Source: Magnetovibrio sp. (lineage in GTDB: Bacteria; Pseudomonadota; Alphaproteobacteria; Rhodospirillales; Magnetovibrionaceae). From it: 14,867 bases of DNA. The position numbers and the translations under genes were made by a program. Where the stretch lies: assembly GCA_016763255.1 (NCBI GenBank), contig JAESUA010000142.1, positions 1 through 14,867 of the forward strand. The letters run 5' to 3'. This document shows, in pieces, positions 7,354-9,649 of this stretch; position 1 is the stretch's first letter, and every line of letters begins with the position of its first letter. A model generated the notes under the pieces. That model was not told the origin of the DNA. It did no database searches and saw nothing but the letters and a program-made list of their open reading frames with translations.

Positions 7354-7632
7354 TTAGCCCAGAACTTTTTTCCACGGGCGGATCGTTACGTCTGCGAAAA
7401 CACCTGCAGTGGCGTAAGGATCGGCGGCGGCGAAAGCATCCACTTCGGCGCGGTTTTCCATATCGACGACGATCAAGCCGCCGTTCATGGTTTCGCAGTC
7501 GTCCGCCTACGTGGGTCCGGCAAAAACCAATTTGTCACCCAGGGCTTTAAGATGTTCAAGGTGGGCAGGGCGGTTTTCCAGGCGTACATCGAGGCGGTCA
7601 ACGTGGTCGGTGCAAAAAAGGGCGAACAGCAT
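7354..7632 (-). pseudogene. YciI family protein interrupted by an in-frame amber stop
   Basis: Reading from ATG 7632 (AGGGA ribosome-binding site) gives MLFALFCTDHVDRLDVRLEN, then RPAHLEHLKALGDKLVFAGP, typical of YciI proteins with the conserved histidine of the RPAHL segment. Codon 42 is TAG (7507-7509). After it the same frame continues without shift to the family's C-terminal pattern, with FAAADPYATAGVFADV and IRPWKKVLG, ending in TAA at 7354. The total of 92 codons matches the normal YciI length. A leucine codon would need only one base change (TTG to TAG). The gene is therefore either freshly inactivated, read through, or carries a sequencing error. YciI proteins are small ferredoxin-like-fold enzymes or binding proteins of mostly unknown substrate. 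Confidence 0.9.
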
Positions 7633-7716
7633 GGATGGATCCCTATTGGTCATGATGAAAGTGGTTTGATAAGCGTTAGTAAGCAAACGTGAACCGGCTG
7701 GAGCGTAATTTCAAGG

Positions 7717-7734
7717 CTTTGATGAACATCAAAG
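7717..7734 (+). promoter_or_regulatory. Perfect FNR/FixK-type binding site
   Basis: CTTTGATGAACATCAAAG is a perfect palindrome around a four-base centre and contains the exact consensus TTGAT-N4-ATCAA (7719-7732) for FNR/FnrL/FixK regulators, which respond to oxygen limitation. It lies about 150 bases before the radical SAM start codon. A TATGTT or TAATAT -10-like hexamer lies about 20-25 bases downstream, so the site is placed roughly where class II activation would put it. It is also about 85 bases upstream of the divergent yciI start, so control of that gene cannot be excluded. Confidence 0.7.
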
Positions 7735-7742
7735 ACAAAATA

Positions 7743-7794
7743 CATGAATAATATGTTCATGGTTCACAATTAACCATAATTAATATATGGTTAA
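7743..7794 (+). promoter_or_regulatory. AT-rich region with nested inverted repeats (candidate operators)
   Basis: Two perfect inverted repeats with seven-base centres follow the FNR-type box: CATGAA-N7-TTCATG (7743-7761) and TTAACCATA-N7-TATGGTTAA (7770-7794). A third overlapping pair, ATGGTT-N7-AACCAT (7759-7777), links them. The ATGGTT/AACCAT half-site thus recurs three times in alternating orientation, which suggests cooperative binding by a dimeric regulator near the transcription start of the radical SAM gene. The regulator is unknown. Confidence 0.4.
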
Positions 7795-7881
7795 TATAGA
7801 TTGCCACGACCCCCCTTTATACACGTTAGGCAAGTAATTTTCGTATTCCACGACGAAGCGATAAAAGGGAGTTCATGCGGC

Positions 7882-9303
7882 ATGGAACACTTCACTATCG
7901 AACAGTTTTTGCCTTGTCGAGAACCGGAACTGGCCACGATCAGCCAACGCAAAGCCTTGCCCCAAGGAAATGTGCAGTTGTGTTTGGCGCATGATGTCAT
8001 GGCCGTGCCCATGTCGTCTGGGTTTAAGGTGTCGTGGGCCGGGGGTGATGTATATGTGCGTGATATGGGCCTTTTGCGTGAACTTGAAACGGGTCGGCTG
8101 AGCACCCGTGAAGCCGCCCGCCGTGGCATGAGTGATGTCCATGAGATGGAACAACTGAATGCCGCAGGGCTGATTTCGACGGATATAAGCGCGTTGCATC
8201 ATGTGCGTGAAGCCAAGATCGCCGACCGCTATCGTAGGCTTTACGATGAAGGTGACTGGACCTGGTTTTGCATGAGTCCCGACAAACTCGAAATTGATCT
8301 CACCAACCGCTGCAACCTGACCTGTGTGCACTGCAGCCGTGAAGCCAGCCCGCACGCCGATGTTGATCCCGAAATGAAACCGCAACAGCTGTTCGCCCTG
8401 GTCGCGGAGGCGGCCGATATCGGCGCGACCTCGCTGAGCTTGATGGGCGGGGAGCCGACGGTGCATCCACACCTGTTGGATCTGGCACATTTTGCCAAAA
8501 AAAAGGGCATCCATTCTTTGTCGACCAGCACCAATGGCCTGCGGGTTAAGGCTGAAATGGCCGAGCGCATGGCCTATCTGTTTTCTTCATTGCAGGTCAG
8601 CCTGCATGGTTGTGATGCGCAAACCCATGACCGTATCGTGCAACATGACGGCGCGTTTAAGGCCGCGACCAATGCGGTGCGCTTGATGATCAAATATGGT
8701 GCCCCGGCCATCAACGTGGCATTTTCGGTGATGCCGCAAAATCGTTCACAAATTGAGGATGCGGTGAAGATGGCCCAGGACCTTGGTGCCACCTCGGTGC
8801 GGTTTTTGGCGCTCACCGCCGAAGGCCGCGCAAGCTGCCTGCCGATGCTCAGCTGCGAAGACAAAAGTGAGATTTCCGACGAGTTGCGCCGCCTGCGCGA
8901 AACTTTGGCCGAGGACACCAGGGCCCTGGACGTGCAGGGCGGCGGCTTTCCCATCTACTTACCGTTTAATAACAAGGCGGCAGTTTATGGCTGTCCCGCA
9001 GGGCGTACCTTGATGTACGTCGAGGCCGACGGCGCGGCGCACATTTGCCACGCGGTGCACGACACAGTCGGCAACGTCACCGAGACCGCGTTGCTTGACC
9101 TTTGGCATCACCCGGATGTGCGAACCATACGCAGGCGAATTTCTTGTGATTGCTCCTACACATCCATTTGGGCCGGGGGCTGTTTGGCTAACCCCGAATG
9201 GATGGAGCGCTTTCAAAGTCCACAATCTAAGTGCGTTCAGGCTAAGTGCGCGCAGGCATCCCAAAGCCCCAGTGCGCCAGCAAAATCAGGTGCGCCTGCA
9301 TAA
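7882..9303 (+). CDS. Radical SAM protein with RRE-like N-terminus and SPASM/twitch-like C-terminus
   Basis: A 473-residue putative peptide or protein maturase. Residues about 30-100 look like a PqqD/RiPP-recognition winged helix: a beta hairpin (FKVSWAGGDVYVRD), then LLRELETGRLSTREAA and a final helix ending LNAAGLIST. The radical SAM core follows with Cys144-x3-Cys148-x2-Cys151 (NRCNLTCVHC) binding the 4Fe-4S cluster and MGGEPT (188-193) for SAM. The C-terminal part has Cys371-x17-Cys389, Cys422-x-Cys424-x9-Cys434 and two further cysteines (451, 456). This resembles a SPASM or twitch domain with auxiliary Fe-S cluster(s) but does not follow the canonical Cx2Cx5Cx3C spacing. ATG 7882 has AAGGGAG about ten bases upstream; the TTG at 7801 has no such signal. 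It is 45 bases before a Cys-rich small gene, its probable substrate. Confidence 0.9.
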   Translation: MEHFTIEQFLPCREPELATISQRKALPQGNVQLCLAHDVMAVPMSSGFKVSWAGGDVYVRDMGLLRELETGRLSTREAARRGMSDVHEMEQLNAAGLISTDISALHHVREAKIADRYRRLYDEGDWTWFCMSPDKLEIDLTNRCNLTCVHCSREASPHADVDPEMKPQQLFALVAEAADIGATSLSLMGGEPTVHPHLLDLAHFAKKKGIHSLSTSTNGLRVKAEMAERMAYLFSSLQVSLHGCDAQTHDRIVQHDGAFKAATNAVRLMIKYGAPAINVAFSVMPQNRSQIEDAVKMAQDLGATSVRFLALTAEGRASCLPMLSCEDKSEISDELRRLRETLAEDTRALDVQGGGFPIYLPFNNKAAVYGCPAGRTLMYVEADGAAHICHAVHDTVGNVTETALLDLWHHPDVRTIRRRISCDCSYTSIWAGGCLANPEWMERFQSPQSKCVQAKCAQASQSPSAPAKSGAPA

Positions 9304-9325
9304 CCAGATGCACCAGCATAAATAT
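9272..9325 (+). repeat. Three degenerate 18-base tandem repeats across the radical SAM stop codon
   Basis: Units GTGCGCCAGCAAAATCAG (9272-9289), GTGCGCCTGCATAACCAG (9290-9307) and ATGCACCAGCATAAATAT (9308-9325) follow each other directly. Units 1 and 2 share 15 of 18 bases. The stop codon of the radical SAM gene lies in unit 2 and unit 3 is non-coding, so the repeat probably arose by duplication and shaped the Ala/Pro/Ser-rich tail. Just upstream, AAGTGCG followed by a CAGGC-like segment also occurs twice (the KCVQAKCAQA tail). Confidence 0.6.
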
Positions 9326-9348
9326 TACTGTCAGCAGAGGAAAAAATC

Positions 9349-9648
9349 ATGGCTCGCAGAGTAACCAGCGCTGCATTGGCGAAGAAAATCGACCCGACAA
9401 TCAGCCGTTTTTTCGAAGAAGAATTGATCAAATTGCGCAAGGATATCACATCGCTTGGGCGCGGTGATGTGATGGCCTGCCAGTCTTGTCACTTGGATGA
9501 CGGCTGTTGTGCCGATATCGGGTGTTGTAAGGACAAGGGCTGTTGCGGCCAAGCCAAGTCGGACTCGGGCTTGTTTGAAAATCCCGATATCTGGTTGTCC
9601 GAATTGGACAAGCGCATCACCAAGATCGTGCCGGGTTATAAACCCTGA
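9349..9648 (+). CDS. Cys-rich small protein, candidate substrate of the adjacent radical SAM enzyme
   Basis: A 99-residue protein of no family I recognise. Residues 1-43 are charged and mostly helical-looking (AALAKKIDPTISRFFEEELI). Residues 44-66 hold eight cysteines (44, 47, 53, 54, 59, 60, 65, 66): one CxxC followed by three GCC units at an exact six-residue period (GCCADI, GCCKDK, GCCGQA). Residues 67-99 contain no cysteine (SGLFENPDIWLSELDKR). There is no signal peptide or membrane segment. AGAGGA sits nine bases before the ATG and the gene follows the radical SAM gene by 45 bases in the same direction, so they form an operon. Possible roles are a RiPP-like or thioether-crosslinked protein matured by the neighbour, or a metal or Fe-S binding protein. 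The central position of the Cys block resembles a modified structural subunit more than a peptide with a C-terminal core. Its stop is one base from the gpsA stop on the other strand. Confidence 0.85.
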   Translation: MARRVTSAALAKKIDPTISRFFEEELIKLRKDITSLGRGDVMACQSCHLDDGCCADIGCCKDKGCCGQAKSDSGLFENPDIWLSELDKRITKIVPGYKP

Positions 9649-9649
9649 G

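Follow-up and report, generated by a model that had tools for sequence, protein, structure and literature searches.

A radical SAM maturase with a predicted RRE fold and a cysteine-rich small-protein partner form a gene pair found in an alphaproteobacterium and in methanogens

Radical S-adenosylmethionine (SAM) enzymes that modify peptides are known mostly from secreted bacterial peptides. One of them, the streptide maturase SuiB, is said to make a Lys-Trp link. In the freyrasin (ranthipeptide) system, the radical SAM/SPASM maturase PapB works on a ribosomal substrate, PapA, with tandem Cys-Xn-Asp/Glu units, which in PapA are of the form CX3(D/E), and PapB accepts n = 0-6 (excerpts of PMC9413430). 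QhpD matures a small protein subunit, QhpC, the gamma subunit of quinohemoprotein amine dehydrogenase, in which Cys is joined to Glu or Asp by thioethers (excerpts of PMC8172795). The sactipeptide maturase SkfB combines an RRE, a radical SAM domain and an auxiliary domain, the last with a CXC pair, and CteB, the SCIFF ranthipeptide/sactipeptide maturase, combines an RRE, a radical SAM and a SPASM domain and acts on a Cys-rich substrate (PMC6231123 and, for SCIFF, PMC8172795, both in part). Here we describe two adjacent genes in a contig of the alphaproteobacterium Magnetovibrio sp. (JAESUA010000142.1, assembly GCA_016763255.1), the whole analysed stretch of which, 14,867 bases, is referred to as the window. 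As an initial annotation of the window had proposed, they encode a 473-residue radical SAM protein (the enzyme, P0001) and, after a gap of 45 bases, a 99-residue Cys-rich protein (the small protein, P0002; Table 1).

Relatives of both proteins lie side by side in other genomes, which makes the pair more than a chance neighbourhood, and we conclude that it represents a new family, in which an RRE-radical SAM maturase is teamed with a small protein that is very probably its substrate. At two Methanosarcina loci, a gene for a 112-residue small protein stands directly upstream of the enzyme gene (the core of the protein at L005 reads DDCGCVKDQGCCQDKGCCREGKCPAE), and the pair is also present in Methanosarcina acetivorans. 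The gene order is reversed between the two groups, with the enzyme first in the window and the small gene first in Methanosarcina. The persistence of the pairing in both an alphaproteobacterium and methanogens, with this reversal of order, carries more weight than the co-occurrence counts. In the taxonomic family of the Methanosarcina draft genome G063, the enzyme is found in 3 of 111 genomes (E<=1e-60) and the full-length small protein in the same three, but these archaeal genomes are closely related, so that the counts do not represent independent events. In a set made up of the host and 59 relatives, both genes were confined to the host (1/60), and the small protein is found in one of 246 sampled genomes of the phylum of G063, namely G063 itself. 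The co-occurrence that the initial annotation had named as its check is thus borne out: in the three genome sets searched, the small protein was not found apart from the enzyme, save for a 20-residue match in G074 (E 3.9e-4), which was taken as chance and whose locus has no frame with a comparable Cys array. Two side observations concern the archaeal loci. In G063 the enzyme is split into two overlapping open reading frames (ORFs) in different frames (L005:7992-9331), with the small protein intact. Genes that we read as the carbon monoxide dehydrogenase catalytic subunit lie about 5 kb from the M. acetivorans pair (L117:13839-15740) and about 2.5 kb from that at L002 (2898-4834); none is shown in L118 (G063).

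The wider distribution was traced in a library of 5.8 billion proteins. The enzyme search scored 7998 candidates and, among the matches listed, gave 13 close relatives (P0004-P0016) with E-values of 4.4e-250 to 1.6e-68, the next match being at 3.8e-17. A tree built from 18 family rows and ten of the more distant matches placed the enzyme family on one side of a moderately supported branch (85/91, recovered in 88% of bootstrap trees). The small protein alone finds a single relative, P0003, at 80% identity, and a profile built from P0002, P0003 and three Methanosarcina proteins added 19 further clusters (P0039-P0057), one of which (P0044) comes from a source named Candidatus Sulfotelmatobacter, an acidobacterial genus. 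Three small-protein clusters match an enzyme cluster in the size of the longest contig (31037, 9890 and 2540 bases), the first of these being P0003 and P0004, with 31,037 bases for both. A fourth equality, 2858 (P0039 with P0013), was not trusted, since P0039 is all but the same as the M. acetivorans small protein, whereas P0013 and the enzyme of that species are widely separated in the tree. Nine of the 13 enzyme clusters have no equal-sized small-protein cluster, and as these include P0011, which comes from a source named M. acetivorans and whose locus is paired, equal size is a weak sign of pairing; nine of the 20 small-protein clusters from outside the window are on contigs shorter than 2 kb. 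In genome contigs, a single-sequence scan with P0001 found no relative; a profile scan, by which the true loci number at least those found, placed L002-L005 in the family among its best 80 loci (E <= 8e-89, against 8e-18 for the next). The enzyme occurs in one of 385 sampled genomes of the host's class, the host itself. No small protein was found in four genomes behind L006, L011, L044 and L075 (a search without a positive control) or in viral contigs, where the enzyme matches were remote among the best 80 listed (best E 1e-17), and plasmids gave no match to the small protein P0047.

The small protein carries eight Cys (residues 44, 47, 53, 54, 59, 60, 65 and 66), that is, eight within 23 residues, as the initial annotation had counted. 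In its relatives the core consists of strict six-residue repeats, G-C-x-x-D/E-x, or, read from the first Cys, C-x-x-(D/E)-x-G, and all 21 clusters have in common three [D/E/N]-x-G-C units exactly six residues apart. Across 24 sequences (the 21 clusters and three locus translations, some of them near-copies), four successive CX2(D/E) units were counted in 13, three in P0002 and P0003, and two in the other nine. None of 2000 shuffles of each protein reached a run of three or four, and CX3(D/E) is present no more than twice in any one protein, in no case as a six-spaced run. Relative to PapA, the units therefore have X = 2, not 3, recur with a period of six residues and carry a second Cys after the first; relative to QhpC, the Cys spacing is a regular hexad, and no qhp structural gene was seen in the window. 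P0002 has no match to any Pfam or NCBIfam model at E<=1, and so none to the family of QhpC itself, which we take to be PF08992. Among 23 aligned members of the small-protein family the best Pfam and NCBIfam E-values were 0.015 and 0.028, each in one member, which leaves the small proteins, in contrast to the SCIFF substrates of CteB, with no NCBIfam match of note, and a profile of the same 23 members found no PDB chain at E<=1. The substrate sequence is thus as unfamiliar as the initial annotation had held, and a search of the open-access literature by motif strings and keywords found no description of this pair among the titles and abstracts listed.

The enzyme gene begins with the ATG at 7882; those relatives whose N-terminus is complete start at the same point, which supports this choice. 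The initial annotation's range of 7633 to 9649 corresponds to the stretch from the start of a YciI-like gene to the end of gpsA, and so reaches beyond the enzyme gene upstream. The protein belongs to the radical SAM superfamily, as judged by its CX3CX2C motif and by PF04055 (76.1 bits against a gathering score of 29.5), and its Cys-rich C-terminus scores above the cut-off of the Pfam SPASM model (31.5 bits, cut-off 21.5). The SPASM subfamily is characterized by a seven-cysteine motif, CX9-15GX4C-CX2CX5CX3C-C (part of PMC5715301). Against this, the auxiliary cysteines of the enzyme have the unusual spacing CX12GX4C ... CXCX5(C)X3C that the initial annotation had not recognised as that of a known system, with CXC in the place of CX2C and with GGC followed by a Cys in just 4 of 14 sequences. 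The X5CX3C that follows the CXC, as in a full SPASM domain, also sets it apart from SkfB. At residue 430 (window 9169-9171), where 13 of 13 aligned relatives have the SPASM Cys, the window enzyme has Trp. No match to a characterised family emerged among the curated models shown: the enzyme falls under the cut-off in each of 25 NCBIfam models shown, of 72 matched at E<=1, and the QhpD model is not one of those 25. The sactipeptide maturases SkfB, AlbA and StsB were rejected at 58.5, 55 and 89.3 bits (cut-offs 300, 850 and 625), as were the ranthipeptide maturase PapB (54.4 against 340) and a viperin-type defence role (54.4 against 180 for prokaryotic viperin); a PADLOC pVip match of 62.8 bits spans residues 138-282, the radical SAM core. 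At the extreme N-terminus, residues 7-12 (window 7900-7917) form a conserved E-[QE]-x-[LV]-P-C, whose Cys lies outside the known cluster motifs.

An RRE is defined as an N-terminal winged helix of three strands followed by three helices (part of PMC12710340). The AlphaFold2 model of the enzyme has such a predicted domain, with strands at residues 32-35, 39-44, 48-52 and 55-59 and helices at 63-70, 75-79 and 83-94; it is in this predicted model only that the winged helix is found, and four strands are assigned where the definition has three. The mean predicted local distance difference test (pLDDT) score is 83-94 per block of ten over residues 21 to 100. The solved folds nearest to the model are the peptide maturases SkfB and then SuiB, with alignments that start at enzyme residue 37 and at 33-34, respectively, and so take in the N-terminal domain; that to CteB starts at model residue 122-131, with the N-terminal domain not superposed. 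Pfam RRE/PqqD gave no match at E<=1 in 13 enzyme members scanned, 11 of them with the N-terminal part. The RRE-like N-terminus of the initial annotation therefore holds up as a predicted fold and does not as a sequence-model match.

A side branch of the family has a different partner. In Candidatus Aegiribacteria, a relative of the enzyme is found in 3 of 42 genomes of the class (E<=1e-40), and its gene overlaps by 17 bases a gene for a 113-residue protein with one Cys (GNGCPNIYY), which is present in the same three genomes. This protein is unrelated to the Cys-rich family (not alignable; hhalign probability 0.1%), and the Aegiribacteria enzymes form a fully supported clade (100/100) with P0014 and P0015. 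Across the maturase family, then, a small partner of roughly 100 residues is retained while its identity can change, and this swap favours a substrate role for the small partner, the 113-residue protein being presumably a second, different substrate. Upstream of the enzyme, a gene for a 203-residue protein with a lipoprotein-like start was observed at L003:6907-7518 and L119:6310-6921, and was not seen in L004.

We propose that the enzyme would bind the small protein through its N-terminal RRE and work along the repeated core. The tandem CX2(D/E) units, by analogy with PapA and QhpC, suggest one thioether per unit, a chemistry towards which we lean, if only by a little: the first Cys of each GC(C) unit would be joined to the Asp/Glu three residues downstream, much as PapB acts on its CX3(D/E) units and QhpD on QhpC. 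Three thioethers (-6 Da) would be expected in the window protein and a change of -8 Da in archaeal relatives with four units, so that the regular hexad gives a sharp prediction of both the mass change and where the rings lie. Of each Cys pair, the second would be left free, as part of a regular thiol array that could hold a metal or cluster. The product would probably be kept inside the cell as a modified protein, as suggested by conserved sequence beyond the core in relatives and by the window's lack of any visible leader protease or exporter gene, and its expression would probably be turned on without oxygen by an FNR-type regulator. A compact pair of patchy occurrence, common to an alphaproteobacterium and methanogens and without an adjacent gene for export or processing in the window, is a pointer to modified proteins that remain intracellular. 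Only tentatively, and with considerable doubt, do we extend this to a new class of radically cross-linked intracellular protein common to archaea and bacteria, in which a chain of thioether-ring hexads and an array of free thiols would make a built-in anaerobic metal/redox cofactor, served by a partner-swapping maturase and carried on a two-gene mobile cassette. Genetic tools exist for M. acetivorans, and its possession of the pair opens the function to genetic test.

Several results count against parts of this proposal. Seven further clusters of the small protein, all on contigs longer than 2 kb, lack an equal-sized partner among the enzyme clusters listed. The fold search used the enzyme model as a whole, with the N-terminal domain only as a part of it. 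The structural model of the small protein has a mean pLDDT of 50.2, a quality too low for a fold search. The nine two-unit small proteins are matched by 2 to 33 of 2000 shuffles and carry Asn, Gln or Ile at the acceptor place of one hexad, so not every unit needs an acid. The one-Cys partner in Aegiribacteria means that the family need not form thioethers throughout, Trp430 may mark a weakened or mis-sequenced copy, and promoter-like hexamers upstream of the pair are no commoner than chance (2 against 1.3). An enzyme-substrate pair with another radical chemistry is a lesser possibility, though one to be taken seriously: epimerisation, C-C or C-O links, decarboxylation or oxidation, with the conserved Asp, Gly or Lys as target sites and the Cys acting solely as metal ligands or disulfide partners. 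This architecture is shared by enzymes with several different reactions, reportedly including the Lys-Trp link of SuiB; the Aegiribacteria partner suggests that the shared reaction may not use Cys; and in the GCCxDKGCC unit the Gly and Lys match or exceed the acids in conservation. What speaks for thioethers is that the Cys-bearing branch couples one Cys and one acid per repeat at a fixed distance, as in PapA.

It is unlikely that the small protein instead serves the enzyme as a metal-binding or redox partner, in the manner of a metallothionein or as an Fe-S donor, with the true substrate elsewhere. A conserved Cys-rich core would suit such a role, as would the finding for SuiB that an RRE need not bind the leader (part of PMC6231123). 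However, the Cys-poor partner beside relatives of the enzyme is easier to reconcile with an exchange of substrates than with one of redox partners, and inspection by eye showed no third gene, common to the window and the Methanosarcina loci, that might code for another substrate. Two of the three Aegiribacteria loci (L003, L119) do have the 203-residue gene in common. We regard it as very improbable that the window copy is a relic, with an inactive enzyme and a decaying pair. The Trp430 substitution, the in-frame stop in the neighbouring YciI-like gene and the state of the genome, a 67% complete draft in 425 contigs, would fit decay, but both ORFs are full-length, and the 80%-identical pair P0004/P0003 has Cys at place 430.

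Table 1. Positions of the features discussed, in window coordinates unless a locus is given.
Feature	Position	Strand	Basis
Radical SAM/SPASM maturase, 473 aa	7882..9303	+	ORF; Pfam Radical_SAM and SPASM; 13 close relatives P0004-P0016
RRE-like winged-helix domain (predicted), enzyme residues 32-94	7975..8163	+	AlphaFold2 model; fold alignments to SkfB, SuiB
CNLTCVHC, CX3CX2C motif of the SAM-binding [4Fe-4S] cluster, residues 144-151	8311..8334	+	
Auxiliary-cluster region C371-X12-G-X4-C389 ... C422-X-C424-X5-W430-X3-C434	8992..9183	+	Alignment
Small Cys-rich protein, 99 aa, presumed substrate	9349..9648	+	ORF; 20 further family clusters (P0003, P0039-P0057)
Hexad core, residues 47-68, CHLDD / GCCADI / GCCKDK / GCCGQ; three CX2D units, 6-residue spacing	9487..9552	+	
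Perfect FNR/ANR-type site TTGATGAACATCAA, upstream of pair	7719..7732	+	Sole window match
10-base perfect inverted repeat ATTAACCATA-N7-TATGGTTAAT, upstream of pair	7769..7795	+	
Aegiribacteria 113-aa partner genes	L003:9322-9663, L004:6410-6751, L119:4134-4475		

Turning to the surroundings of the pair, its neighbours in the window, as read from their translations, include Rieske, EVE, YciI, gpsA, tsaD and hemC genes. In agreement with the initial annotation, the same reading revealed no transporter, peptidase or immunity gene in the window, a further difference from SkfB as regards transporter and immunity genes. In the window gpsA and YciI flank the pair, which is encoded on the other strand and ends one base from the gpsA stop. 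In 11 of 17 gpsA loci of relatives YciI adjoins gpsA (in six it does not), with a Rieske gene further on in all 11 and an EVE gene in nine, and neither gene of the pair is present in any of the 17. The pair is thus a compact acquired cassette inserted between gpsA and YciI. The YciI-like gene itself (window ~7376-7653, minus strand) has an in-frame stop after ...FAGPT, a place through which relatives' copies align; it is either a pseudogene or the result of a sequencing error in the draft genome.

The sequence upstream of the pair is AT-rich (38.1% GC over 7656-7881, against 56.9% for the window). It contains the palindrome TTGAT-N4-ATCAA, which we take to be the FNR/ANR consensus; this occurs once in the window, where 0.01 is expected and 3 of 200 shuffles have one, and is absent from the eight relatives' loci checked. 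The 10-base inverted repeat that lies between this site and the enzyme gene is a possible operator.
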